Source: Candidatus Alcyoniella australis (GTDB taxonomy: Bacteria > Lernaellota > Lernaellaia > JAVCCG01 > Alcyoniellaceae). Taken from it: a DNA stretch of 22,257 nt. The notes below the pieces were generated by a model, which worked only from the letters and a program-made list of their open reading frames with translations, was not told where the DNA came from and ran no database searches. The stretch's first letter is position 1; every line of letters begins with the position of its first letter. Shown here piece by piece: positions 707 to 19,464 of this stretch. The translations under genes and the position numbers were made by a program. Location of the stretch: positions 1 to 22,257 of the forward strand of contig JAVCCG010000122.1 of the NCBI GenBank assembly GCA_030765605.1. Direction: 5' to 3'.

Positions 707-2335
707 TCAACGATCCTCAGGTACGGGCGGTCCCTTGACCGCGTGGTCGTGGTGCCCGTCCTGGTCAAAGGCTTCAGCCTGCTCGTCGTCGTAGAACAGC
801 ACCGCCACGGCCTCGGAGTCGTCCTCGGAGTTGATCGCCATCAGCATGCCGTAATAGAGGAACCCCTCGTAGGTCTTGCTGTCGATCTCCACGCTCACGC
901 CCTCGGCGCTGTTCTGGATCAACCAGGCCCAGTCCAGGGCCACCGACCACTGGCCGAGCACATCGTCGGTCGCGGGGTAGGCGCAGCGGTTCATCTGCTT
1001 CTCGCCGGTGAATTCGATGCTGACGTAGTCGCCGCCCTGGCACTCGATCTGGAACAGCCCGTCCTCGATCGTGCCCGAGACGAAGGTCCCGGAGTAGCTG
1101 ATGGTCAACTGCGTGGGGCAGACCTCGGGTTCGGGGTCGATCAGCACGTAGCTCAGCTCGAACCCGACGTCGGTCACCTCGCCGCTTAGCGGCAGACCCG
1201 AGACCTCGCCCAGATCCTCATCCGCCGGCGGCATGTACCAGGCGGCCGCGCCGTAGCCCTGGTCGCCGAAACGATTGATTGTAAGAAAGTACAGCGGCTC
1301 CAGGTCGCCGGGCCACTGCATCTGGAGCAGGTACGGACCCACCGGATCGTCCGGATCCCAAGCCATGTCGTCGCATTTACCCAGATCGTTGTTAAAAGCC
1401 GACAGCGGCATGCGCCAGATCAACGAGCTCGCGGACACGACCTGCCCGGCATCTGAGTCGTAGAGCCCGGCAATGCAATCGACCTGCACCGCATCGTCCC
1501 CCGGCAGCAGGCTCGAGGGAATCTCGCTCCCATCGGGGCTGCCGCGCGCGGGCAGGCTCAACTCGACGTCCACCGTCTGCGCGTTGTCCTCGATCTCGAA
1601 CTCGAAAATCGATTCTTCGCCCGACCCGTCGACGGCCACGTTGCCGCGCGAATCATCCCAGTCCATGCCGCACGAGGCGTAGCGGATCAGCCCTGCCTTG
1701 GCCGGGGCAAACTCGATTCGGCCGCTGAGCTCAATGCTTCCGCCCGGCGACGCGCTGTTTGCTGGATTGATTTGCAGGCTGCTTAGGTCGGGCTGCAGCG
1801 ACTCGTCGCCGCCCCACAGCGTTGAGACGCCCGGCCGCGAGGGACTGGAGGTCACCTTCCAGTCGGTGTCTCCCTGGCTGTCCTGCTCGCGGGAAAAGAC
1901 CGCCGTCGAGTTGGCCTGGATCTGCGCGTAGAGCACCAGATCGAGCTGTTCTTCATCCATCTGCGCCTGGTAGAGCACGTCGATCTGCGCCTGCGCCGCG
2001 TCGCCGTCGATCGTTACCACGGTCTGAAGCGTATAGCTGGTAACCGTCAACTCCGAGTCCTCGATATTCTCGTAGGCCTCGGCATGCAGGCCCGCACGAT
2101 CCAGGCCCGCGTAATTGTAGTGCTGCGAGATGTGCGGCCAGACCAGCTCGTCGTAGGCCTCGTTGGTCTGCAAGGAATAGCCCTGGATCATCTCGGCCAC
2201 GATCTGCTCGATGCGCGCTGCATCGTCGTCGTCGTCGTCGTCGTCGTCGTCCGCCTCGCAGGCACCCAGCAGCAGCCCCAGGACCAAAAATCCCAGCAGC
2301 GCGAATATCGCCAGTAGTTTAAGCGTGCGTCTCAT
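707..2335 (-). CDS. Secreted poly-Asp lipoprotein, possible NTF2-like domain
   Basis: The 542-aa product has a type II signal peptide: charged MRRTLK, a leucine-rich core, then the lipobox LLGAC with Cys26 as the lipidation site. Ten consecutive aspartates follow at 29-38, then a soluble exported region. Residues about 40-165 look like an NTF2/SnoaL-type alpha+beta fold: a helical start, alternating strands ending in a DWKV-type strand, and an aromatic-rich middle. This is a judgement from pattern, not a database match. The rest (about 170-525) is acidic, beta-rich and contains six scattered cysteines that could pair as disulfides. Start chosen: ATG with AGAGGA seven bases upstream. No enzyme motif was recognised. 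The +2 residue after the lipid cysteine is Glu. It is probably cell-envelope exposed, function unknown. The neighbouring AEC gene is convergent and unlikely to be related. Confidence 0.8.
   Translation of the reverse strand: MRRTLKLLAIFALLGFLVLGLLLGACEADDDDDDDDDDAARIEQIVAEMIQGYSLQTNEAYDELVWPHISQHYNYAGLDRAGLHAEAYENIEDSELTVTSYTLQTVVTIDGDAAQAQIDVLYQAQMDEEQLDLVLYAQIQANSTAVFSREQDSQGDTDWKVTSSPSRPGVSTLWGGDESLQPDLSSLQINPANSASPGGSIELSGRIEFAPAKAGLIRYASCGMDWDDSRGNVAVDGSGEESIFEFEIEDNAQTVDVELSLPARGSPDGSEIPSSLLPGDDAVQVDCIAGLYDSDAGQVVSASSLIWRMPLSAFNNDLGKCDDMAWDPDDPVGPYLLQMQWPGDLEPLYFLTINRFGDQGYGAAAWYMPPADEDLGEVSGLPLSGEVTDVGFELSYVLIDPEPEVCPTQLTISYSGTFVSGTIEDGLFQIECQGGDYVSIEFTGEKQMNRCAYPATDDVLGQWSVALDWAWLIQNSAEGVSVEIDSKTYEGFLYYGMLMAINSEDDSEAVAVLFYDDEQAEAFDQDGHHDHAVKGPPVPEDR
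2222..2251 (-). repeat. GAC trinucleotide run encoding ten Asp
   Basis: On the minus strand nine identical GAC codons followed by one GAT form an almost pure trinucleotide tract just after the lipidated cysteine codon. Gain or loss of repeat units would keep the frame and change only the length of the acidic linker. Confidence 0.9.
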
Positions 2336-6805: not shown

Positions 6806-8671
6806 TTTCCACTCCACGCGATAGCGCACAGTGTAGTTCGCCAGCGCCTGCTTAATCTTGCTCTCCACCGCCTGCTCGGGCTCGTCGGCCGCGACAACGC
6901 GGATCGTCGCCAGCATGCCGTGGATCTTGTCTTCGCCGACCTCGACCTTGCAGCTTTGGACCATCTCGCCCAGAGCCCCGAGTTCGCGCTGGTACACGCG
7001 GCGCACCGCATCCCAACGCAGCGCGGGCTTGAACAGCTTGCCCACCGCGGTCTTGGGCAGACTTTCGAGCACCACGATCTCCTTGGGCACGGCCGCACGC
7101 TCGCCGATCAGCTCGCCGGCGCGCTTCATCAGCTCATCGCTGGTCAGCGCGACGCCCTGCTCGGGCTCGACGTAGGCCACGGGCACCTCGCCGGCATAGG
7201 GGTCGGGACGGCCGATGGCCGCCACCAGCGAGACGCCGGGGATTTTGGCCAGGGCGTTCTCGATCATCGAGGGGTCGATGTTGTGGCCGCCGCGGATGAT
7301 CAGATCCTTTTCGCGGCCGGTGATCCAGAAGTACCCCTCAGCGTCGCGGCGTCCCAAATCGCCGGTGTTGAGCCAATCCTGGGCGACCCAGCAGGTCTCG
7401 TTATAGGCCTCGTCGGTGTACCCGGGAAAGACGTTGGGGCCCTTGATCACGATCGTGCCGATCTCGTCGTCGTCGCAATCGCGCTGAAAAACGCCGTTCT
7501 CGTCGAGCTTGACGCACTTCATCGGCTGGTAGGGCAGGCGGATGCCGATCGAGCCGACCTTACGCTCTCCGTCGCGGGGGTTGATCGAGCTGACCAGCGT
7601 GGCCTCGGTCAGGCCGTAGCCTTCCAGAATTTTCATGCCGGTGGCGGCCTCGAAGTTGCGAAAAAGTTCGATAGGCATCGGCGCGGCGCCGCAGATCGCG
7701 TAACGCAGCGAGGAGATGTCGATCCCGGCCGCGGGCACCTGCAACAGCCCGGCGTAGACCGTGGGCACGCCGGAGAAGAACGTGGCGCGATAGCGCTCGA
7801 CGATCTTGTAGAAGTTGCCGATCAACGTGCGGTCGCGGTAGCCCGCGGCCCCGGCGAGCACCACGCGCGCGCCCACCGCGTAGGGCGCCAGGCCGGTGGC
7901 GAGTACCGCGTTGACGTGAAACAGCGGCAGGCCGCAGATCATCGAGCTGTCGCAATCAAAGCCCGCCATCACGCCCACGGCCCAGGCGATGTAGGTCTCC
8001 ATGGCGTGGGTGTGCTTGGCCAGCTTGGGCGTGCCCGTGGTTCCGCCGGTATGAAACAGCGCGCATAGGTCCTGCGGATCGATGCTGCGCTCGAAGCTCA
8101 GCCCCTGGGCGTCGTAGCGCCCGAGTTGCTCGTCGAAGTCCAGCACTCCCTCCGCCGTAGTCGGCGGTCCGAGCACGCGCAGCACCACCTTGAGTTCGGG
8201 CAACATACTGCGCAGCTTTTCGACCTTGGGCCAGATGTCGCTGCCCGGCACGTCGCCCAGCGCGATCAGCACCTTGGTTTTGGCCGCTGCCATGATCTGG
8301 CCGATCACCTCGGCCTCGAGCATTGGATTGATCGGGTTGACCACGCCGCAGGCCTGGCCGCCCCAGATCGCAAATTGAGTCTGCGGCAGGTTGGGCAGCA
8401 GCAGCGAGACCACGTCGTCCGGGCCCACGCCCAGGTCGCGCAGCATATTCGCAGTACGATGGATCCCGCCCAACAACTGCTGGTAGCTAAAGTCCAGGGG
8501 CTTATCGTACTGCTCGCCGTTTTGAAAAAAGGTCAGCGCGATGCGCTCGGGCGTGCGCTGCGCCTGGTCGCGGATCATCTCGTAGGTCGAAGCGGGGATG
8601 CCGCGCTGCTCCAGCGGAACCTGCTCAATGCGCTCAATGTCCGCAATTCCGCGGATGCTGTACTGCTCCAT
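6797..8671 (-). CDS. AMP-dependent acyl-CoA synthetase
   Basis: The 624-aa enzyme belongs to the ANL superfamily and activates a carboxylic acid to its CoA thioester through an acyl-adenylate. Motifs are in the expected order: P-loop-like FHTGGTTGTPKLAKHTH (206-222), GYGLTEAT (351-358), TGDLG (436-440), the hinge GREKDLIIRGG (452-462), and the catalytic lysine in KTAVGKLFKP (Lys545). It is somewhat longer than typical 500-560-aa members, with an N-terminal extension before the first domain. The substrate is probably a fatty acid; chain length cannot be read. Start chosen: ATG 8671 with GAGGGA upstream, in preference to the in-frame ATG at 8692. A probable promoter and a palindrome precede it. 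The ETF cluster in the same window supports a role in fatty-acid oxidation. Confidence 0.92.
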   Translation of the reverse strand: MEQYSIRGIADIERIEQVPLEQRGIPASTYEMIRDQAQRTPERIALTFFQNGEQYDKPLDFSYQQLLGGIHRTANMLRDLGVGPDDVVSLLLPNLPQTQFAIWGGQACGVVNPINPMLEAEVIGQIMAAAKTKVLIALGDVPGSDIWPKVEKLRSMLPELKVVLRVLGPPTTAEGVLDFDEQLGRYDAQGLSFERSIDPQDLCALFHTGGTTGTPKLAKHTHAMETYIAWAVGVMAGFDCDSSMICGLPLFHVNAVLATGLAPYAVGARVVLAGAAGYRDRTLIGNFYKIVERYRATFFSGVPTVYAGLLQVPAAGIDISSLRYAICGAAPMPIELFRNFEAATGMKILEGYGLTEATLVSSINPRDGERKVGSIGIRLPYQPMKCVKLDENGVFQRDCDDDEIGTIVIKGPNVFPGYTDEAYNETCWVAQDWLNTGDLGRRDAEGYFWITGREKDLIIRGGHNIDPSMIENALAKIPGVSLVAAIGRPDPYAGEVPVAYVEPEQGVALTSDELMKRAGELIGERAAVPKEIVVLESLPKTAVGKLFKPALRWDAVRRVYQRELGALGEMVQSCKVEVGEDKIHGMLATIRVVAADEPEQAVESKIKQALANYTVRYRVEWKSA

Positions 8672-8693
8672 TAGGTTTCCCTCTTGATACATG

Positions 8694-8708
8694 CCGACCG
8701 GCGGTCGG
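8694..8708. promoter_or_regulatory. Palindrome CCGACC-GGC-GGTCGG before the acyl-CoA synthetase
   Basis: A perfect 6+6 inverted repeat with a three-base centre sits 23 bases upstream of the acyl-CoA synthetase start codon, downstream of the candidate promoter. Position and shape fit a TetR-type repressor site, but no regulator is assigned. Confidence 0.4.
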
Positions 8709-8739
8709 GCGAATTGATTACCATTAATGGAATCGAATC

Positions 8740-8769
8740 AATCTATCGTTCGCACTTTAATGCTGTCAA
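8740..8769 (-). promoter_or_regulatory. Candidate promoter of the acyl-CoA synthetase gene
   Basis: On the minus strand TTGACA (8769-8764) is followed after 18 bases by TAGATT (8745-8740). The start codon is about 70 bases further on and the palindrome at 8694-8708 lies between. Confidence 0.4.
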
Positions 8770-8880
8770 ACCCGAGCTTGGCAATGCTTATTTGGGGAGC
8801 AAAATCGATTGCTGGCGTAAGGCTTTTTTATTATTAGGTATTTCTCCTTATTTAAATTGTATCCGTCGCAATGAAACGTC

Positions 8881-8909
8881 TTGCTTTCAGGATCAACGGC
8901 TCTGATAAT
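8881..8909 (+). promoter_or_regulatory. Candidate promoter of the transglutaminase-like lipoprotein gene
   Basis: GATAAT (8904-8909) is a good -10 box. TTGCTT (8881-8886), 17 bases upstream, is a modest -35 box. The start codon at 8948 follows about 38 bases later. The surrounding 8,700-8,940 gap is AT-richer than the genes and holds nothing else recognisable. Confidence 0.35.
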
Positions 8910-8947
8910 CGATCGGCCGATACTGAAGAAGTCAAGGAAAATTCATT

Positions 8948-11137
8948 ATGCATCATCAAGGTAGACTTTTTCTCTTCTCGATATTGTTGTTGGCGCTGTT
9001 GCTCGCGCTATGCACGACCGCCTGTGATAACGGCGATCAGGGCAATAGTGCGCAAAACGATGACAACGAAGACGACAACGATGACGACGATGACGACAGC
9101 GTCGAGTATCCACCCTGCCCGGCGGACGGCGCGCTCGAGGCGACCTATCAGCCCGAGGAGTTCCCCGACTCGGGACCGATTTTCTCGCCGCTCTACGACC
9201 GGCTTTACCAGCATCCGCAGCCGGTATTAATGCTCAATCCGACCTACAAGATCAGGCAGGTGGAGGTCTTTGATTGGGACCAGCCGTTGGACGCGCACAA
9301 CGGCTTCGAGCTGCCGGCCCTGGCCGATGGCTACCACTGCCTGCGGGTCGAGGGGCTGTCCGCGGACAAGGGATTAGTGCGCGTTTACCTGCCCTTCGAG
9401 GTGCGCAGCACCGAGGACTTTCAGACGGCGCAGGTCGCAACGCCGCCCCTGGGTTCGGCCGCGCCGCTGGGGCTCGACGATGGTTCAGCGAACCTGCCGC
9501 AGTGGATCGAGCTAAGCAACGAGGGCTCGCAGCTGATCGAAGGGTTGCGCGTGTACGACGGACAGCTCGGCGATCGGTCCGACATCGAGGCCTGGGTCGA
9601 CCAATACACAGCGGGCATGAGCGATAGTCAGGCGGCCCAGGCATTGTACGAGGCGGTGACCGCCCAATTGCGTTGGGGCATGGTGCCGGAGCTCGAGGGG
9701 ATGTTCGACCCGGCGCTGATGTTCAACGTTTTCGGCTACGGCTGGTGCGGCGAACAGAGCCACGTTCTGGTCTATCTCTGGCAGATCGCCGGGCTCGATG
9801 CGCGGGTGGCTTACCTCGTCGGCCACGTCTGCGCCGAGGTCTACTATGACGGCGGCTGGCACTTCTTTGATCCGAGCAGCAGGCTGTTCTTTCTTGACCA
9901 CGGTCTGAGCAACGTGACCTCGCTCGAGACACTGGAGAACGACTCTTCGTTGATATATGCCTCGACCGATCCCGACGAGCGATTGGCCAACCTGACCGAT
10001 TTCGCCGACCATTACACTGATCTCTTGGGGCCGCCCAACGGCTCGGAAGAGCCGGATCCCCTGGCGCATCAGACCGTGCGCCATCAGCTCTATCCACGCG
10101 AGAGCTTGAAAATTCACTACAGCGGTTTGGGCGCCAGCTTCTGCCACGATTGCACCGAGGCGCGTTTCTTCAGCGGGGCCATGCGCCGCGAGTGGCAGGT
10201 GCTCGATCCCGAACTCGGGCTCGCACCGCTGTCCATGGAAAACATCGAGCACCTGATGTTCGAGCAGCAGGCTCCGGCGCCGCTGCATCCCGAAGACACG
10301 ACCAATACCGGACGCTGGACCATCAAGCGCGAGTTCAGCGGCTTCGTCCTGGGCGTCTATCTGCACGCGGTGATCAAAGGCGACGATGCCTCGGACACCG
10401 TAACCTTCCTGGTGGGCCCGGACGCGGATTCCCTGGTGCAGGCTGCGACCTACCGTCCCACAACGGAACAACAGGTCTACCTCGATCTGGGCTCGCGGCT
10501 CGATCTTCAGGCATTCATGCCGCTGCGCTCCCTGACCATCGAGATCAGGATCAACGCCGCGGGCAGCGCGGACAGCGTCGGACTCAAACAGCTCGAGCTG
10601 GTCTATATCGAACAGACCGGAGCCTGGGCCGCGCCCGCGCCCCACGGCCCGACCGACGAGCTGATCGTGGACCTCGAGTCCGGGCCCGCGCCGGCGTTGC
10701 GTCTGGGTTATGCGCAACTCGAACGCGAGCAGCCCTCGTCGGTGGACAGCTTCTGCTCGGCTGAGGGCAAACAGATCGCGGCCGACGGCAGGGCCTTCGC
10801 CTCCCTGGCCTACAAGCTCCACGGCGCCAACGGCCATAGGCTTGGCGGCGGCCAGAAGGTCCAGCTGGTATCAAACCGCGGGACGGCCGATCAGATCCAA
10901 CGCATCTGGTTCATGGGTCGCGACGTTTTTTCGCTGTGGCGCTCGCCGGGCGTGCTCAGTCCGGAGAAGGGAGCGTCGGTCGCCGATGGAACTTCCAAGG
11001 ATTGGTTGTCCGACAATGACTGGGACCTGCTGTACGTAGTACGCTCCACACAGCCGGGCCAGGCGACGTTCTCTCTTGAGATCAACGGCCAGGCTGTGGA
11101 GGGATCGGATGTCAACGTACAATTTATCGAGCCCTGA
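8948..11137 (+). CDS. Poly-Asp lipoprotein with transglutaminase-like domain
   Basis: The 729-aa product has a signal peptide ending in the lipobox-like LCTTAC (Cys26) and an Asp/Asn-rich linker at 38-50. The middle region carries a transglutaminase/cysteine-protease-like core: Cys267 in YGWCGEQSHVLVYLWQIAGLDARV, His293 in LVGHVCAEVYYDGGWHFFD, and Asp308, in the spacing of the usual Cys-His-Asp triad. In this superfamily the fold is used for peptide bond cleavage or cross-linking. The N-terminal 60-200 and the C-terminal 400-729 are beta-rich; residues about 445-560 (GRWTIKREFSGFVLGVYLHAV) resemble a carbohydrate-binding-like sandwich, which is only a guess. Ribosome binding site AAGGAAA precedes the ATG. 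The residue after the lipid cysteine is Asp, a retention signal in E. coli. It overlaps the next gene by 29 bases. Confidence 0.82.
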   Translation: MHHQGRLFLFSILLLALLLALCTTACDNGDQGNSAQNDDNEDDNDDDDDDSVEYPPCPADGALEATYQPEEFPDSGPIFSPLYDRLYQHPQPVLMLNPTYKIRQVEVFDWDQPLDAHNGFELPALADGYHCLRVEGLSADKGLVRVYLPFEVRSTEDFQTAQVATPPLGSAAPLGLDDGSANLPQWIELSNEGSQLIEGLRVYDGQLGDRSDIEAWVDQYTAGMSDSQAAQALYEAVTAQLRWGMVPELEGMFDPALMFNVFGYGWCGEQSHVLVYLWQIAGLDARVAYLVGHVCAEVYYDGGWHFFDPSSRLFFLDHGLSNVTSLETLENDSSLIYASTDPDERLANLTDFADHYTDLLGPPNGSEEPDPLAHQTVRHQLYPRESLKIHYSGLGASFCHDCTEARFFSGAMRREWQVLDPELGLAPLSMENIEHLMFEQQAPAPLHPEDTTNTGRWTIKREFSGFVLGVYLHAVIKGDDASDTVTFLVGPDADSLVQAATYRPTTEQQVYLDLGSRLDLQAFMPLRSLTIEIRINAAGSADSVGLKQLELVYIEQTGAWAAPAPHGPTDELIVDLESGPAPALRLGYAQLEREQPSSVDSFCSAEGKQIAADGRAFASLAYKLHGANGHRLGGGQKVQLVSNRGTADQIQRIWFMGRDVFSLWRSPGVLSPEKGASVADGTSKDWLSDNDWDLLYVVRSTQPGQATFSLEINGQAVEGSDVNVQFIEP

Positions 11138-12080
11138 ACGCGGACGATTTCTTCTGCACTACGCGCTAAGCGCGCTGCTGGCGGTCGTGCTTTTATGCAG
11201 CGCGGCCCTGGCCGCGGACAAGCCGTTGCGGCCGTGCTTCCCGGGCATCAGCGGCATGGCGATCTTGGACGAGCACAGCCTGCTGGTGGTTTACGACACC
11301 AAGAACAAGCCTAAAAATGCGGACAAGCCGCGCGTCGCCGCCCTGACCATCGACCGCAAGGGTCGGCCTGAGCTGCGCGATGTGCGGCTGACATGGCCCG
11401 CATCCGCTGCCCTGCCCAACGATTTGGAGTCGATCTGCCCGGTACCCGGACGCACCGACGAGTTCCTCGCGGCCGAAAGCGGCTTTTACCAGGGTCGCTA
11501 CGGACGGGTGTTTCACCTGCTCATCCAGCGCGCCAATACGCGCTGGACGGGCGCGGTCCTCGCCGTCTACCGCTTGCCCGCTGATACGGACAATGTCGAG
11601 GGGCTGGTCTGTCTGCGGTTCGACGATCAGCGCAAACTACTGCTGCTGGGAGAGCGCGGCGGCTCGGACGCCAATCCAAACGGCAAGCTGCGGCTGTGCA
11701 GCATCGGGACGGACAACGCGCTGCAAGTGATCCAGGAGCAGGCGCTGTCCGTGGACGATACGCTGTGGAGCGACCCGCTGCGCAATCGCGACATCGCGGA
11801 GCTGTACCTCGATCCCGAGGGCCGACTGTGGGGCGCGGCGGCCCAGGACCAGGGCGACGGCGGGCCGTTTCGCTCGGTGATCTACCTCGCGGGCAAGGTC
11901 GAGACCCAGGCCGAGAATCCGCTGCAACTGCGCCCCGCGCCGCTGGTCGTCTATCGCATCGACGGGTTCAAGGTCGAGGCGCTGTGTGCGCCGCTGATCC
12001 CGGGCAGCGCCCTGAGCGCGGGCACGGACGACGAGGATTACGGCGGAACCTGGCGACCGCTCCAGGAGCTGCTCCCGTGA
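11109..12080 (+). CDS. Secreted beta-propeller-like protein (phytase-like/SdiA-regulated-like)
   Basis: The 323-aa product has a Sec signal peptide whose hydrophobic core spans about residues 15-36 and ends in AALA-ADK. The mature part has repeated beta-rich segments typical of small propellers. The phrase LPNDLESICPVPG followed by FLAAESG resembles the conserved start of the phytase-like and SdiA-regulated families, and YLDPEGRLWG looks like a blade. The catalytic function is not established. Start chosen: ATG 11109 with GGAGGG just upstream, lying inside the 3' end of the lipoprotein gene (29-base overlap), so the two genes are probably translationally coupled. Envelope location together with the transglutaminase-like lipoprotein suggests a shared extracytoplasmic task. 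Family placement is moderate confidence. Confidence 0.7.
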   Translation: MSTYNLSSPERGRFLLHYALSALLAVVLLCSAALAADKPLRPCFPGISGMAILDEHSLLVVYDTKNKPKNADKPRVAALTIDRKGRPELRDVRLTWPASAALPNDLESICPVPGRTDEFLAAESGFYQGRYGRVFHLLIQRANTRWTGAVLAVYRLPADTDNVEGLVCLRFDDQRKLLLLGERGGSDANPNGKLRLCSIGTDNALQVIQEQALSVDDTLWSDPLRNRDIAELYLDPEGRLWGAAAQDQGDGGPFRSVIYLAGKVETQAENPLQLRPAPLVVYRIDGFKVEALCAPLIPGSALSAGTDDEDYGGTWRPLQELLP

Positions 12081-12525
12081 GATACTCGTCCACCCACAAG
12101 CAACCATAAAATTAATCTTAGGAAACAAGATGATGCGATTAATACAGATAAACCGTTTACAGCTTGCTTTTTTTCTGAATCGTTATGGACAAACACCTTG
12201 ACAAATGGATCACAACCTCATAGAAAGATGTAGACAATAAAAATAAACACCATGGAGCAAGGCATAATCGGGTCATTAAAGCGGACAAGCAGCGACGAGA
12301 CGACAACTAGTATGAACGCTAACCAGTGACGTACGGTAGAGTCTTAAATATGGAAATGCACCCGATGCAGAGCTTAGTCGATTCGGCGATTGGTCCTATC
12401 AATGAGACCGTCGAGATCAAGCATACAGGGAGCGACCCTCACAGTTCATGCCGTTTACGCTATTACCGGACCAACAGGTCGGCAACGCTCGCCCGTTTCA
12501 GAACAACCGTTTCGAGGTTAATCCA
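12081..12525 (+). other. AT-rich non-coding leader of the island
   Basis: These 445 bases contain no convincing gene. GC content falls sharply right after the stop codon at 12080. A TTGACA at 12198-12203 with TAGAAA 17 bases downstream is a weak promoter candidate for the following operon. GACC-AACA-GGTC (12469-12480) is a small hairpin 46 bases before the first gene. A short open frame from GTG 12326 to 12535 has no ribosome binding site and no recognisable content. No terminal repeats, integrase remnants or tRNA were seen. Confidence 0.4.
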
Positions 12526-13419
12526 ATGCAGATAGATAACACCCTTTCCATTAAAGGGAAAAGGGATCTAATCAACAGTGTCCTTGAACCTCTGACATCG
12601 GTCGAAGCTTTCAAGAGTCGCTTTTTACAAAATACCGGCGATTCTATGGCTGAAGCTGATGTTGCTGATCCTGTTAAATGGCTAACAGCTCTTACTGAAG
12701 AGATGATTAAAAATATCAACAAGGATAAGTATAATAATCTTTTCAACGCACTCAACTTTAAAAACCCTCAGTCTTTCCTGAAGTGGAAATCTCCTCAGGT
12801 TTGGGATGAATATATTGAATATTGTAAGGATCTAGTTAGAAATACGTCGTATGGGCTCGTATTGGTTCCTACCAATATAAACACACGCAAAGAATGCTTA
12901 ATCAGGCTTTTCTCGGGAAATCTTAAATTGCTTTGGTTGAATCTTGGTGCCGTCAATGAAGCTGTTTGGGACATTAATACCGTATCGTCATTAGCAACAT
13001 CCCTCAGGAAGCACAAGCCCAAGGTCATTGCAAGCTTTGGTTGGGAACATATTAGTCCAGAAATGGAATTTGACGATAAACAGATAAAAAATCTAATAAA
13101 AAAGAGAAATGTCCTACAAACGATAGCCTCGTATGGTAAAGAGAATAAAGAGAAAACACTGTTGATCGTACTTCGCGAGAGAATGGAAAACCATTTTGTT
13201 TTATCCGTTAACAAAAACCTGGCAGAAAAGACTGTTGCCACTTTGATGTTTGAGTACTTACATAGTGAGGACCAACAACGTCGCGACACTTACTTCCTGG
13301 AGTCACCAACGGCTAAATTGTTTGAAATAGGCATTATTACGAAACATTTACTCAGAGAGCCTATAGTGGAACCTGAATCTGAAAGGGGCTCTCCTGATTC
13401 CTACTGGATCAGATTCTAG
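12526..13419 (+). CDS. Orphan 297-aa protein of the AT-rich island
   Basis: I do not recognise this protein. It is soluble, with no signal peptide or membrane helix. The N-terminal half (about 1-110) is predicted helical and lysine-rich. The second part reads as an alpha/beta domain with strands YGLVLVPT, LKLLWLNLGAV, PKVIASFGW and KTLLIVLRER separated by helices; the C-terminal tail SPDSYWIRF is polar and aromatic. No catalytic motif, zinc cluster or helix-turn-helix stands out. Start chosen: ATG 12526 with GAGG eight bases upstream; an in-frame ATG at 12448 has no ribosome binding site. Composition is AT-rich with AAA, ATA, TTA and AGA codons, unlike the flanking genes. It precedes the HD-domain gene by 37 bases in the same direction, so the two probably form an operon. 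Confidence 0.75.
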   Translation: MQIDNTLSIKGKRDLINSVLEPLTSVEAFKSRFLQNTGDSMAEADVADPVKWLTALTEEMIKNINKDKYNNLFNALNFKNPQSFLKWKSPQVWDEYIEYCKDLVRNTSYGLVLVPTNINTRKECLIRLFSGNLKLLWLNLGAVNEAVWDINTVSSLATSLRKHKPKVIASFGWEHISPEMEFDDKQIKNLIKKRNVLQTIASYGKENKEKTLLIVLRERMENHFVLSVNKNLAEKTVATLMFEYLHSEDQQRRDTYFLESPTAKLFEIGIITKHLLREPIVEPESERGSPDSYWIRF

Positions 13420-13456
13420 TTATCCCAAAAAAATCAAAATGAATCAAGGTGGCCTT

Positions 13457-14554
13457 ATGTCAGCTGAGAATGTACCCAGGGATGTAGTCGATGAATTCTT
13501 TACTCATTCGAAGATAATCAGCAGAATTGTAATGAAAGGTAGCGTTACCTTTTTTATTCAAGGCGATTTTCGATGGGATAATGGTAAATTAATAGATTTT
13601 GACGATCGCCAAAGAAACCTTGGAGAAGAAGCACAAATTCTCGCTAGGTATTTAAGTAAGGGGTGGCTTGTAATCCCATGGCCACTTTTAAAGCGAAATT
13701 CAGCAAGTTTTCAGGACGATCTAACATCGATTTGGCCATGTAGAAAAACGATAAATCCTCCTACTTATCATAAAATTATTTGTATTGAAACATCAAGCTT
13801 CCTGGCAAAATCTGAAAGAATTGATATTGATGATGTCAATTATACAGTAGAATCTCAGTTTTGCAACATGACTCCCCTTCAATATTTATGCGCTAAAGAC
13901 GATTATACGTGGGAGCACTCGATGCGCGTTGGTCGCATAACATCTAATATGGTTAATTTATTTGATGCTTTATTCACCTTTGCCGAGATCAATGCTTTAC
14001 GCCTCTGTGGTTATCTTCATGATTTTGGTAAATTAAATGCTCCCGATATTCTACTAAGCAAGCCCTCTAGCTTATCACCAAGGGAAATGTATTGGGTAAA
14101 TAGGCATCAATTGGTGGGCCTTGGTCTTGTCAGCATTCTCTCTGACGCTTCCCCATATTTGAAAACCTTGCCAATTTTATGTCATCACCTTCGACCATAT
14201 CAGGTAGAACTAGTTGGAAGAGACTTTTTTCAAGAGGAAAAAATACATGACGTTGAAGGACGATATGCTAAATTCGTTGTTGGTACTACTATACTGAAGC
14301 TAGCTGACGCTTTAGATTGCCTTTTATCTAGTCGATCATATCAAAAACGGAAGACACCCAGGGAAGCAATAGATATTCTTTTGAAAGACATTAAGATAAC
14401 TGAAAGAGTTAGTAATCACCATGCGTTCCCATTAGTTCCTCTGATTGGAAAAAACATTTACTTCCCGATCATTGAAAATTGGTTAAACTCTGCTAAAACT
14501 ATAATCTTTCTTAATGATCTACTTAGAACATTTCCATCACCACCCCCTGATTAA
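13457..14554 (+). CDS. HD-GYP-like domain protein lacking the GYP motif
   Basis: The 365-aa protein has an unknown N-terminal domain (about 1-140) and an HD-GYP-like phosphohydrolase domain (about 145-335). Metal-ligand positions are kept: His154 in EHSMRVGRIT, HD at 188-189 with Lys192 in YLHDFGKLNAPDILLSKPSSLS, His217, the pair His243-His244, and Asp284/Asp287 in LKLADALDCLLSSRSYQKRKTPREA. In canonical enzymes the HH is followed by E-x-x-DGSGYP; here it is LRPYQVELVGRDFF, so GYP is absent. HD-GYP proteins degrade cyclic di-GMP or related dinucleotides; loss of GYP leaves activity and substrate open. ATG 13457 has AAGGTGG upstream. AT-rich codon use matches the preceding orphan gene. No receiver or sensor domain was recognised. 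Confidence 0.82.
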   Translation: MSAENVPRDVVDEFFTHSKIISRIVMKGSVTFFIQGDFRWDNGKLIDFDDRQRNLGEEAQILARYLSKGWLVIPWPLLKRNSASFQDDLTSIWPCRKTINPPTYHKIICIETSSFLAKSERIDIDDVNYTVESQFCNMTPLQYLCAKDDYTWEHSMRVGRITSNMVNLFDALFTFAEINALRLCGYLHDFGKLNAPDILLSKPSSLSPREMYWVNRHQLVGLGLVSILSDASPYLKTLPILCHHLRPYQVELVGRDFFQEEKIHDVEGRYAKFVVGTTILKLADALDCLLSSRSYQKRKTPREAIDILLKDIKITERVSNHHAFPLVPLIGKNIYFPIIENWLNSAKTIIFLNDLLRTFPSPPPD

Positions 14555-14560
14555 GAGCAG

Positions 14561-14589
14561 AAAAAACCCGCGCCCCAAAGGGACGCGGG
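14561..14589 (-). terminator. Intrinsic terminator of the ETF/oxidoreductase operon
   Basis: Read on the minus strand, CCCGCG-TCCC-TTT-GGGG-CGCGGG forms a strong GC-rich hairpin (one bulge) followed directly by six T. It lies about 30 bases after the TAG of the Fe-S oxidoreductase gene. On the plus strand the T-run is missing, so it mainly ends minus-strand transcription, though it also sits just after the HD gene. Confidence 0.9.
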
Positions 14590-14617
14590 CTGGTAAATAA
14601 CTGTCTTGCTCTAGGGT

Positions 14618-16744
14618 CTATTCGTCGAGGGACTTAGCTACGACCTCTGCCAGGTCGAACAGCTCGACTCCCTGCTCGTCGTACCCTTTGAGCTTATAGG
14701 CCTCGTCGAACATCGTCAGGCAGAACGGGCAGGCCGAGCACAGCACGTCGGGCTTGGCCTCCATCATCTGCTCCACGCGGGTGACGTTGATCTTGGGCGC
14801 GTGCTCCTCAAGCCACATCAGACCGCCGCCGCCTCCGCAGCAGAAGGCCTTGTTGCGGCTGCGCTCGATCTCGGTGGTCTTCAGGCCGGGAACCGCTGCC
14901 AGCACCTGGCGCGGCTCGTCGTACAGGTCGTTGTAGCGGCCCAGGTAACACGAGTCGTGGAACACCAGGTTCTTGCCGCTAAAACCGTTGTTCTTGAGTT
15001 TAATCTTGCCGCCCTGAATCAACTCGGCGATGAACTCGGTGTGGTGTTTGACCTCGTACTCGCCGCCAAGTTTCGGGTACTCATGCTTGAGCGTGTTGTA
15101 GCCGTGCGGGCAGGTGGTGACGATCTTCTTCACGCCCAGCTCGTTCATGATCTCGACGTTTTGCATCGCGATCATCTGGAACAGGCCCTCTTCGCCCAGA
15201 CGGCGGGAGGAATCGCCGCAGCAGCTCTCGTCGTTGCCGATCACTGCAAACTTGATTCCGGCCTGGCGCATGATCTTGACCAACGACTGCGAGACCTTCT
15301 GCGCGCGCGCGTCATAGGCGCCCATGCAGCCGACCCACAGCAGCACGTCGAAATCACCGTCGGAGGCCAGCGGAATATCCAGGCCCTCGGCCCAGCCTAT
15401 GCGGTCGCCGGGGTTCATACCCCAGGGGTTCATGTTGTTGGTCATGTTCTTGAGGAAGTTGCTTCCCTCGGCGGGCATAATCATGTTGAACACCAGGGCG
15501 CGACGAACCTCGTTCATCAGCGAGAGGTGCTCGATCATCACCGGGCAGGCCTCCATACAGGCCATGCAGGTTGTACACGACCAGACCACGTCGGGCTTGA
15601 CCACGTCGTTGAGGAACGGCTCGGGATCGTACTCGTCGTCCGCGGCCTTTTCCTCGCCCTCGCCCTCGACCGACTTGGCGGCCTCAGCCTTGCACTTGGC
15701 GTCCCAATAGATCTTGAAGTCCTGGATGAACTGCTTGGGGCTCAGCGGCTTCTCGGTGTTGTAAGCCGGGCAGACCTCCTGACAGCGTCCGCAGCGGGTG
15801 CAGGCGTCGAGCATCACAAGCTGCTTGGGCGTGAAATCGGCGATACGATCATAGCCCAGGCGCTCGATCTGATCGTTCTCCATCTTCTCGATCAGGTTGT
15901 CGATGGGCACGACCGCACCATCGAGCTCCAGGTTGCTCGAATAGATGTTGGCCGAGCTGGCCACGATGTGCCACAGCTTGGTGTAGGGGATTACGGCGAT
16001 GAAGCCCAGTCCCAGGAACAGGTGCAGGAACCAGATCACCTTGTGGAACGCCGCTGTGCCGCCCACGCCCAATCCCTTGAGTCCCAGGGCCAGCAAATAG
16101 CCCACCGGGCTGGCCAACGGCTCGAAGCTCGCGTAGTCCGGGTTGATGCCGTGCGTGGTCAGCTGGGTCCCCGGCGCCACGAGCAGCCCGTTGGCAATGC
16201 GTCCGGCCTCGGAAAGGAAGCCCGTGACCAGGATCAGCGCGATCAGGCCCAGCACCACCGCGTCGTCGGAGCGGTTGTCGAGACGATCGGGCTTGGTCAC
16301 GTAGCGTCGCCAGGCAGCCATGCCCAGGCCGATGATCGCCAGCACGCCGAACAGGTCGAGGAAAAAGCTGAACGCGACGTAGAATCCGCCTTGGATGAAC
16401 TTGCTGCCGGTGATCAGTCGGTAGAGATCCTCGTCGAGCACCGTGGCCGCCGTTCCGATGAACAGCACTACGAAGCCGAAGAAGATGCAGGCGTGCATGA
16501 TCCCCGGGTAGGCCTCTTTGAAAACCTTGATCTGCACCAGGGCGTACTTGAGCAGATTGACGATGCGCGCGCCCATCTGGTCCAGGCGCGGCTTTTCAGA
16601 CTTGGTACCGGCGCGCCACAGCTTGACCTTGGTCCACACGCCGTAGGCGAAGATCGCCATGGTCACCAGCGCCAAGCCGTAGACAAACCAGCGGGTCCAG
16701 CCGTATCCCTGGTAGATCTCCCAGAAGGCTAACCGTTCCTTCAT
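14618..16744 (-). CDS. Membrane Fe-S oxidoreductase, ETF:menaquinone oxidoreductase type
   Basis: The 708-aa protein combines an N-terminal NarI-like heme b membrane domain with a soluble HdrD/GlpC-like part. About six helices lie in residues 18-265, with candidate heme ligands His84, His234 and His241. Two [4Fe-4S] motifs follow: CTRCGRCQEVC (Cys315-325) and CTTCMACMEAC (Cys390-400), then two CCG domains with key pairs at 508-509 and 635-636. This architecture matches the family shown in other bacteria to pass electrons from ETF to menaquinone (EMO). An acidic, Ala/Glu-rich stretch separates the two cluster motifs (about 355-375). Start chosen: ATG 16744 with AAGGAG. It follows etfA by 82 bases in the operon, supporting the role. 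Confidence 0.88.
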   Translation of the reverse strand: MKERLAFWEIYQGYGWTRWFVYGLALVTMAIFAYGVWTKVKLWRAGTKSEKPRLDQMGARIVNLLKYALVQIKVFKEAYPGIMHACIFFGFVVLFIGTAATVLDEDLYRLITGSKFIQGGFYVAFSFFLDLFGVLAIIGLGMAAWRRYVTKPDRLDNRSDDAVVLGLIALILVTGFLSEAGRIANGLLVAPGTQLTTHGINPDYASFEPLASPVGYLLALGLKGLGVGGTAAFHKVIWFLHLFLGLGFIAVIPYTKLWHIVASSANIYSSNLELDGAVVPIDNLIEKMENDQIERLGYDRIADFTPKQLVMLDACTRCGRCQEVCPAYNTEKPLSPKQFIQDFKIYWDAKCKAEAAKSVEGEGEEKAADDEYDPEPFLNDVVKPDVVWSCTTCMACMEACPVMIEHLSLMNEVRRALVFNMIMPAEGSNFLKNMTNNMNPWGMNPGDRIGWAEGLDIPLASDGDFDVLLWVGCMGAYDARAQKVSQSLVKIMRQAGIKFAVIGNDESCCGDSSRRLGEEGLFQMIAMQNVEIMNELGVKKIVTTCPHGYNTLKHEYPKLGGEYEVKHHTEFIAELIQGGKIKLKNNGFSGKNLVFHDSCYLGRYNDLYDEPRQVLAAVPGLKTTEIERSRNKAFCCGGGGGLMWLEEHAPKINVTRVEQMMEAKPDVLCSACPFCLTMFDEAYKLKGYDEQGVELFDLAEVVAKSLDE

Positions 16745-16826
16745 AACATGCTCCTTGCACCGAACCGCCCACAACGGCCGGCTTTATGCCGACCGTTGCA
16801 GACGTATTGTATTCGACCGCTACGGG

Positions 16827-17792
16827 CTATTCGGCCAGCAGTTTCTTGAATTCCTCGGTCAGCAGTGGAACCACCTCGAACAGGTCGTCGACGATGCCGT
16901 AATCGGCCTTCTGGAAGATCGGGGCTTCCACGTCCTTGTTGACGGCCACGATGACCTTGGAGGTCCGCATGCCGGCCAGATGCTGGATCGCGCCGGAGAT
17001 GCCGAACGCCAGATACAGCGAGGGGTTGACGACCTTACCGGTCTGTCCGACCTGCCAGGACTGCGGGGCGAAGCCCGAGTCCACGGCGGCGCGGCTGGCG
17101 CCGATGGTCGCACCGATCGCGTCGGCGAGATCCTCGAGAATTTTGAAGTTCTCGGCGGCCTTCATCGCGCGTCCGCCGGAGACGATGCGGTCGGCCTCGG
17201 TCAGGTCCGGACGATCGCTCTCGCCCTCGACCGTCTCTTTGAGCACGGCCTTGATCACACCTGCGTCGGCTGCCACAACGTTCTCGGCTGCGGCTTTGCC
17301 CGCCTCGGGCTCGGCCACGGCGATCACGTTGGGGCGGATCGCAACGATCCCCTTGCCGTCCCTGAAGATCACGTCGTTGAACGCCTTGCCGGCGAACACC
17401 GGGCGGCGCGCCACGACCCTGTCGCCGTCTTTGTTGATGTCGACGGTGTCGGCGGCGATGCCGATGCCCAGCTTGGCGGCCAGGCGCGGGGCCAGATCCT
17501 TGCCCGTGGTGGTTGAGCCGAACAGGATCAGCTCGTACCCTTTGTCGTTGATCAGATCGGCCAGAACCTTGGCGTAACCCTCGTTGGAGTAGTCGGCCAG
17601 GGCGTCGGACTCGAGCAGATAGACATTGTCGGCGCCGTACGGTCCGACCAGGGCGCCGATGCCGGCCAGGCCCTTGCCGATGGCCGCGACGTCGGCGGTC
17701 TCGCCCAGATTCTTGGCGGCGCTGAGCAACTCGAAGGTTATCTTTTTAGGCTCGCTGCCCTTGAGCTCCGCAATAACGAGTATCTTAGACAT
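16827..17792 (-). CDS. etfA: Electron transfer flavoprotein, alpha subunit
   Basis: The 321-aa subunit has the normal length. The N-terminal domain ([10 protein letters not shown]) pairs with EtfB. The C-terminal FAD-binding domain shows the family pattern: [39 protein letters not shown], and [22 protein letters not shown] takes electrons from acyl-CoA dehydrogenases and delivers them to a quinone oxidoreductase. The ribosome binding site AAAGGAG stands before the ATG. It lies 24 bases after etfB and ahead of the Fe-S oxidoreductase gene, giving the acceptor side of beta-oxidation or a related pathway. Secure call; which dehydrogenases feed it cannot be seen here. Confidence 0.97.
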
Positions 17793-17816
17793 GGTGCTGC
17801 TCCTTTCCCGCCAGGG

Positions 17817-18593
17817 TTAGATAACCTTGGCTTCTTCGCGAAGCAGGCGAACCAATTCCTTGACGTTCTGCTCGCGATCGCCGGTGTTGATGACCTTGCC
17901 GGCCGCCCTCTCGTCGGGCAGCGACCAGCCGATGATCTCGGTCTTGGACACGGGCTCCACGCCCAGATCGGCGAAGTTCTTCACGTCGACCGGTTTGCGC
18001 TTGGCCTTCATGATACCCGGAAGGCTGGCATAACGCGGCTCGTTGAGTCCCTTGGTCGCGGCGACCAGAGCCGGCAGCGGGGCCTCGATCACCATCTTGG
18101 CGCCGCCCTCGATGTCGCGGTTGACGGTGACGGTGCCCTCGCCGACCTCGACCTTGCTCACCACGGTGACCTGCGGGATGCCTAAAAGCTCGCAGAGCAT
18201 CGCCGGGACCGCTGACTGGTCATCGTCCATCGCCTGCTTGCCGCAGACGATCAGGCCGTACTCCACGCCGTCCAGACCCTTGGCCAAAGCCTGGGCCGTG
18301 GTCAGTGCGTCCATGCCGTCCAGCGAGTCGACCTTGACGTGGATCGCCTTGTCGGCTCCCATCGCCAAGCCGGTGCGGATCGCCTCGATGGCGCGGTCCG
18401 GACCCATGGAAAGGATAGTCACTTCGTCGGCCTTGCCGGCCTCCTTGATCTTCAGAGCCTCTTCGACCGCGTACTCATCATAGGGGTTCATCACCCACTT
18501 GATACCGTCAGTCTCGATACCCGATCCGTCGGCCTTGATCTTGATCTTGGTCTCGGTATCGGGCACCTGCTTGACAAGAACTACTATGTTCAC
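17817..18593 (-). CDS. etfB: Electron transfer flavoprotein, beta subunit
   Basis: The 258-aa subunit shows MNIVVLVKQVPDT at the N-terminus, the conserved MNPYDEYAVEEAL, TILSMGP, CGKQAMDDDQSAVPAMLCELLGIPQVT and EAPLPALVAATKGLNEPRY. It binds AMP and forms the partner-docking surface of ETF. The start codon is GTG, not ATG, with a strong AGGAGGT five bases upstream. It is first of the etfB-etfA-oxidoreductase set. The TetR-family gene ends 130 bases upstream on the same strand, so the four genes may share a transcript, or etfB may have its own promoter in that gap. One half-site of the FadR-like box (TCATTCA, 18640-18646) also lies in the gap. Confidence 0.97.
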   Translation of the reverse strand: MNIVVLVKQVPDTETKIKIKADGSGIETDGIKWVMNPYDEYAVEEALKIKEAGKADEVTILSMGPDRAIEAIRTGLAMGADKAIHVKVDSLDGMDALTTAQALAKGLDGVEYGLIVCGKQAMDDDQSAVPAMLCELLGIPQVTVVSKVEVGEGTVTVNRDIEGGAKMVIEAPLPALVAATKGLNEPRYASLPGIMKAKRKPVDVKNFADLGVEPVSKTEIIGWSLPDERAAGKVINTGDREQNVKELVRLLREEAKVI

Positions 18594-18723
18594 AGGGCAC
18601 CTCCTCGGATTGGTTTCTTGATGCCCGCCCTACCCTGGGTCATTCATGATAGGACGTGCGCCTTAAATCGTTTCCCCCCGCAGGCGGGGTCGGTCCGTTA
18701 TCCGTATCAATTCCAGCGCCGCG
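18594..18723 (-). other. Gap between regulator gene and etfB, with small hairpin
   Basis: The 130 bases contain a perfect hairpin CCCCGC-AG-GCGGGG (18676-18689) and a single FadR-like half-site at 18640-18646. On the minus strand a TTGACG overlapping the regulator stop codon, followed by GGATAA 18 bases later, is a weak promoter candidate. There is no T-run after the hairpin. Confidence 0.35.
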
Positions 18724-19341
18724 TCAACCTGCGGCGACCGGTTGCCTGTCGACCAATATTCCCTTTACGAAGATCCGGTAGATCTGCTCCTCGGCGGTCT
18801 TGAGCGAGTACTTGCGCTTGGGCGTCAACACCCAGTAGAGCACCATCTCGTCCAACGCCCCGAACAACGCGCGCTTGAAAACCCCGGGCTTGACCTCGGC
18901 GTCGAATACGCCCTGATCTTTGCCCTCGCGCACGATGTAACTGACGATCTGCATGTAATCCGCGAACTTGCGCGGAACGTACTCCTTCATGAACTTGTGG
19001 CTCTGACGCAACTCGACGGTCAGCACCTCGGCCAACGCCTGGTTGGCCTCCATGGTCGTCAGGTGCAGGTGGATAAATGTCTTGAGCTTTTCCACCGGGT
19101 CGTGCACCTGCTCCAGACGGCTCTTGAACTGCGAAATCAGGGTTTCGAGGTTCTCCTCGAAGAGCTTGATCAGAATGTCGTCTTTATTCTTGAAGTACAG
19201 GTAGATCGTGCCGTCGGCCACTCCGGCCTCGTTGGCGATCTGGCTGATTTTACTCTTGTGAAAACCGTTCTTGGCAAATACTTTTATGGCGGCCTGTAGT
19301 ATTTTTTCGTGCTTGTCGTCGATGTTCTTCAACGTCACCAT
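18724..19341 (-). CDS. TetR-family regulator, FadR-like
   Basis: The 205-aa protein has a TetR N-terminal helix-turn-helix: ILQAAIKVFAKNGFHKSKISQIANEAGVADGTIYLYFKNKDDIL, then an alpha-helical ligand domain. Together with its location before etfBA it resembles acyl-CoA-responsive regulators of fatty-acid oxidation such as Bacillus FadR. A near-perfect FadR-type box lies at 19483-19500, overlapping the predicted start of its own transcript, so auto-repression and control of the downstream etf genes are likely. Start chosen: ATG 19341 (MVTLKNID), giving the usual short arm before the first helix; a TTG at 19371 would add ten residues. The ligand is inferred, not shown. Confidence 0.88.
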   Translation of the reverse strand: MVTLKNIDDKHEKILQAAIKVFAKNGFHKSKISQIANEAGVADGTIYLYFKNKDDILIKLFEENLETLISQFKSRLEQVHDPVEKLKTFIHLHLTTMEANQALAEVLTVELRQSHKFMKEYVPRKFADYMQIVSYIVREGKDQGVFDAEVKPGVFKRALFGALDEMVLYWVLTPKRKYSLKTAEEQIYRIFVKGILVDRQPVAAG

Positions 19342-19464
19342 TGTCTCGGCCGGCCTTAAGATTTTGAGCAAAACCTACTTCGAAACATTCATCAGCCCAA
19401 TACTGCGAGATGGCCCCGTCGCGCAGCAACTCCGGCTGCACGGCTTGACTGTAATTCGGACTAA

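Follow-up and report, generated by a model that had tools for sequence, protein, structure and literature searches.

An AT-rich two-gene segment in Candidatus Alcyoniella australis encodes an orphan protein and a GYP-less HD-domain protein and is possibly an acquired accessory module

A short AT-rich segment with two genes, P0001 and P0002, interrupts a contig of Candidatus Alcyoniella australis, which raises the question of whether the segment was acquired and whether its two proteins act together. The window analysed is the whole contig of 22,257 bp, from a draft genome of 4.29 Mb in 157 contigs. Its GC content is 36-40% over ~12.1-14.56 kb and 60-67% around it. In our estimate there is about an even chance that the segment is an acquired two-gene accessory module of the conflict type, in which P0002, a predicted dinuclear HD phosphohydrolase, is the executor working with P0001. 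The features of the locus are listed below; residue numbers of P0002 count from position 13439.

12081-12525, no strand: non-coding lead of 445 bases, 39% GC to 12325 and then 51% GC to 12525
12096-14565, no strand: AT-rich segment, the presumed insert, with the limits of a likelihood scan; the real joints lie between 12081 and ~14564
12526-13419, plus strand: P0001, orphan protein of 297 aa, start backed by a ribosome-binding site
13457-14554, plus strand: P0002, predicted HD-domain phosphohydrolase, 365 aa from the ATG backed by a ribosome-binding site, 371 aa from 13439
13457-13873, plus strand: P0002 residues 7-145, an orphan N-terminal stretch that matches no family
13889-14386, plus strand: HD domain of P0002, residues 151-316, with seven ligands and K198, GYP loop replaced
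14565-14591, minus strand: intrinsic terminator of the native convergent FeS oxidoreductase gene, formed by a strong hairpin and a T-run and bounding the insert on its right
14618-19347, minus strand: native TetR-EtfB-EtfA-FeS oxidoreductase block, order kept in three class relatives

In the likelihood scan of the whole contig, the top-scoring low-GC segment was 12096-14565, with 39.0% GC inside and 62.6% outside. Its log-likelihood ratio is 248, compared with 27 for the next best segment elsewhere in the contig and at most 28 in block shuffles. GC3 is 0.41 in P0001 and 0.30 in P0002, against 0.80-0.88 in eight neighbouring native genes, which bears out the AT-rich codon usage described in the original prediction. 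The hand counts given there (22/60 GC at 13141-13200 and 39/60 at 11941-12000) are exact, and the GC drop that it saw after the stop codon at 12080 stands. The terminator near 14561, where it saw the GC content recover, is however on the minus strand and belongs to the native FeS operon rather than to the island. The lead at 12081-12525 is single copy in its own genome. The idea that 12300-12525 in the lead might be part of an integron or an RNA element was rejected, as no stable fold (z +1.6) and no Rfam family were found there. Between the 39% GC part of the lead and the island genes lies a 200-base non-coding stretch of 51% GC (12326-12525), which gives the insert itself the look of a mosaic. 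The contig has a second short GC dip, 48% over 8501-9000, with the intergenic stretch 8693-8947 between the acyl-CoA synthetase gene and a transglutaminase-like gene.

The left edge of the segment falls just past the stop codon of a native gene at 12080. Three relatives from other genera of the same class (L048-L050) carry TetR, EtfB, EtfA, and FeS genes in this order, probably a fatty-acid oxidation electron-transfer operon, and continue past the FeS gene into GC-rich DNA without the island. In two of the three, L049 and L050, the FeS gene is followed by a terminator similar to the one at 14565-14591, which can therefore be assigned to the native FeS operon. The event may be pictured as the insertion of a two-gene cassette between the native gene and the terminator of this conserved ETF/FeS operon. 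P0001 and the P0002 N-terminus were absent from all six searched genomes of the class, which disfavours vertical inheritance with the pair carried by all relatives. Because of the contrast in composition, the native flanks with their conserved operon and terminators, and the class relatives that carry the FeS operon without the island, the horizontal acquisition originally proposed is well supported. Neither an integrase, a transposase, a tRNA site, nor a target duplication was found in the contig, so the segment does not classify as cargo of a mobile element, and there were no convincing repeats at the joints. An assembly chimera, or a stray piece of another organism in the contig, could also explain a compositionally foreign segment in a draft genome of this many contigs. 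Yet both joints lie within a single contig of 22 kb, the sequence across each joint is unique in the genome, and the edges coincide with the stop codon at 12080 and the native terminator at 14565-14591; we consider this explanation very unlikely.

Within the acquired segment, P0001 and P0002 are long genes on the same strand, separated by 37 bases and with likely starts at 12526 and 13457. Each is preceded by a purine-rich ribosome-binding site, CGAGG for P0001 and AAGGTGG for P0002, confirming the arrangement as first described and supporting the notion of a two-gene unit. The open frames exceed what is expected by chance (P ~2e-9 and 8e-12 in a mononucleotide model), and the genes probably form one transcription unit. 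A partnership of the two proteins is suggested by gene order, and adjacency is the one argument for it because no second example of the pair turned up in anything searched. The segment could instead hold two unrelated genes, a stand-alone HD phosphohydrolase and an orphan reading frame, brought in by one transfer and having no joint function. This would agree with the lack of co-occurrence evidence, with the unlike GC3 of the two genes, and with searches in which relatives of P0001 were not found, but not readily with a common strand, a short gap, a ribosome-binding site on each gene, and a cargo that consists of exactly these two genes. It is regarded as unlikely.

P0001 is an orphan, as originally claimed. 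No Pfam or NCBIfam profile matched it above cut-off, PADLOC, PHROGs, and the PDB gave no match, and tblastn found none in 72,556 plasmids or 50,697 phage records. An alternative in-frame ATG upstream at 12448 would extend the protein to 323 aa, with no visible ribosome-binding site. A single-sequence fold was uninformative (pLDDT 35). The idea of an effector-associated adaptor at the N-terminus of P0001 was dropped for want of Pfam support. Among the Pfam, NCBIfam, and PADLOC profiles P0001 matched no nucleotidyltransferase or cyclase family, a comparison that a very diverged member could escape. The earlier idea that the HD protein makes a nucleotide signal is therefore unsupported, since HD phosphohydrolases hydrolyse and P0001 matched neither kind of synthesizing enzyme.

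The distribution of the unique parts of the pair was examined with a query of P0001 joined to the P0002 N-terminus, run on sets of 386, 398, 195, and 297 genomes (~1,280 in total), which represent ~1.3% of the species in the collection and so speak to rarity, not to absence. Only the pair itself and a few weak matches were recovered; those examined were a sensor kinase and valyl-tRNA synthetases and were ascribed to chance. Thus, the unique parts of the pair are rare or very fast evolving. The same plasmid and phage records held neither P0001 nor the P0002 N-terminus, tblastn yielding HD-domain matches only. The longest plasmid match (Pseudomonas BA28, L013) proved to be an ordinary HD-GYP with GYP intact and no P0001-like neighbour. 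Patterns of 8-residue peptides, which detect close relatives only, found no relatives in genome and viral contigs.

The second gene was predicted to encode an HD-type phosphohydrolase, and profiles and ligands support this. P0002 matched HD PF01966 with 30.3 bits (cut-off 22) and HD_5 PF13487 with 29.7 bits (cut-off 27.2), and these profiles together with the H...HD...D ligands place it in the HD-domain superfamily. The seven-ligand H...HD...H...HH...D site is complete (H160, H194, D195, H223, H249, H250, and D290), all seven residues are invariant in an alignment with 11-13 HD-GYP domains, and K198, R299, and Y301 are also kept. Dinuclear HD phosphodiesterases, including the GYP-less PgpH, have these seven ligands (PMC8177086), and on this ground P0002 would be of the HD phosphodiesterase type. 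Trinuclear PmGH-type enzymes have a glutamate as eighth ligand four residues ahead of the first histidine, E185 in PmGH. P0002 has Y156 in its place (KDDYTWEH, compared with the E of KDPETQNH in 4mcw), suggesting a dinuclear site. The genome encodes four other HD domains, all of the ordinary kind.

The GYP triad is absent from P0002. No GYP loop matches the columns G262-Y263-P264 of the aligned HD-GYP domains, and beside the site, where the HD-GYP subclass has the loop HHExxDGxGYP, P0002 reads HHLRPYQVELVGRDFFQEEKIHD. Judged by its sequence, the HD domain is derived from HD-GYP with loss of the GYP, and P0002 is not an HD-GYP protein by definition. The description HD-GYP-like holds for descent from the HD-GYP/HD_5 branch, but is unsupported as stated because the triad is gone. 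Compared with the HD-GYPs PmGH and PA4781 (HD_5 PF13487), P0002 shares the HD fold, the seven ligands, HDxGK, and the R and Y of SRSYQK, whereas it differs in the missing triad, a 12-residue insertion between HH and the last D, an unrelated N-terminus, and the tyrosine at the eighth-ligand position. Given the GYP loss and the insertion, the substrate is probably not c-di-GMP.

In a structure model of P0002 the HD part was obtained with confidence (pLDDT mostly 60-90), and the N-terminal part was modelled below pLDDT 50. A Pfam search gave no family match for the N-terminal ~145 aa, and a degenerate PD-(D/E)XK fold considered there was dropped, likewise finding no Pfam support. The structures closest to the HD model were PA4781, PmGH, DvhD, and PgpH, with Bd1817 also among the matches, a ranking biased toward HD-GYP because the model was built from an alignment of HD-GYP domains; no weight is given to the families missing from it. 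PgpH, which acts on c-di-AMP (4S1B), matched with Z 12-13 at ~18-19% identity; it is a membrane protein, whereas P0002 is a soluble two-part protein. The two have in common the seven-ligand pattern without GYP (PMC8177086).

All HD-GYPs reported to be active retain GYP (PMC8177086), and P0002 could therefore be inactive or a binding protein. This leads to the main rival explanation, in which the two proteins are a receptor pair: P0002, as a degenerate HD-GYP, would still bind a dinucleotide, cyclic or linear, but would have lost the ability to cleave it and would relay the signal to P0001. The loss of GYP fits such a role, and there are precedents among the structural matches: Bd1817 has a degraded GYP and is inactive on c-di-GMP (PMC8177086), and the HD-GYP domain of DvhD is a c-di-GMP receptor (PMC13090378). 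All three have an HD-GYP-derived fold with an altered signature or no catalysis. P0002, however, retains its seven ligands and K198, whereas Bd1817 lacks the last aspartate, and this retention suggests selection for catalysis. P0002 also differs from Bd1817 and DvhD in its extra domains, and no P0001-like gene partner has been described for them. A receptor pair is accordingly considered unlikely.

In the preferred reading, an acquired module with an HD enzyme as executor, the C-terminal HD domain of P0002, a descendant of the HD-GYP/HD_5 branch, would hold two metal ions in the seven-ligand site. As its family predicts, it would cleave a nucleotide-type substrate by hydrolysis of a phosphodiester or phosphoanhydride bond. 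The P0002 N-terminus and the presumably co-transcribed P0001 might sense a trigger, restrain the enzyme, or select its target. An analogy is offered by other acquired modules of the accessory kind whose HD enzyme clears or destroys a nucleotide, and a conflict, or defence-like, role of the pair is guessed at from its likeness to Clover (PMC12265719) and comparable acquired HD systems. The fuller version, in which the two genes form a new conflict module and a partner from a new family controls a GYP-less HD enzyme that has a new N-terminal domain and clears or destroys a nucleotide, is judged unlikely.

Clover (CloA/CloB) has the same two-gene logic with an HD nucleotide hydrolase as effector (PMC12265719), which would suit a two-gene anti-phage system in the general Clover or dGTPase style, where an HD nucleotide hydrolase is restrained by its neighbour. 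Against this, P0001 is not recognizable as a nucleotidyltransferase, the role of CloB, and P0002 belongs to another HD branch, HD-GYP/HD_5 with its HH ligand pair, with no demonstrated likeness to dNTPases. The system-specific models of PADLOC did not match P0001 and showed for P0002 weak HD similarity to Cas3 (E 9e-5) and DndG (0.02), which does not assign the pair to a known defence system. The island contains no recognizable nucleotidyltransferase or known defence family, and no defence genes are nearby in the contig. We therefore judge a system of this style very unlikely.

Should P0001 and P0002 prove to work as a module, the list of acquired nucleotide-hydrolase systems would gain an HD enzyme whose substrate pocket is altered, together with a new partner family. 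Otherwise they are a foreign orphan pair, of use mainly as a sign that genes have been transferred into a bacterial class that is poorly sampled. Elsewhere in the window, secreted lipoproteins encoded at 713-2335 (minus strand) and 8948-11134 (plus strand) carry a long aspartate/asparagine tract after the lipobox cysteine. The first 60 residues of the transglutaminase-like protein match many otherwise unrelated proteins throughout the class (many contigs, G000-G005), suggesting an acidic lipoprotein leader common across it.
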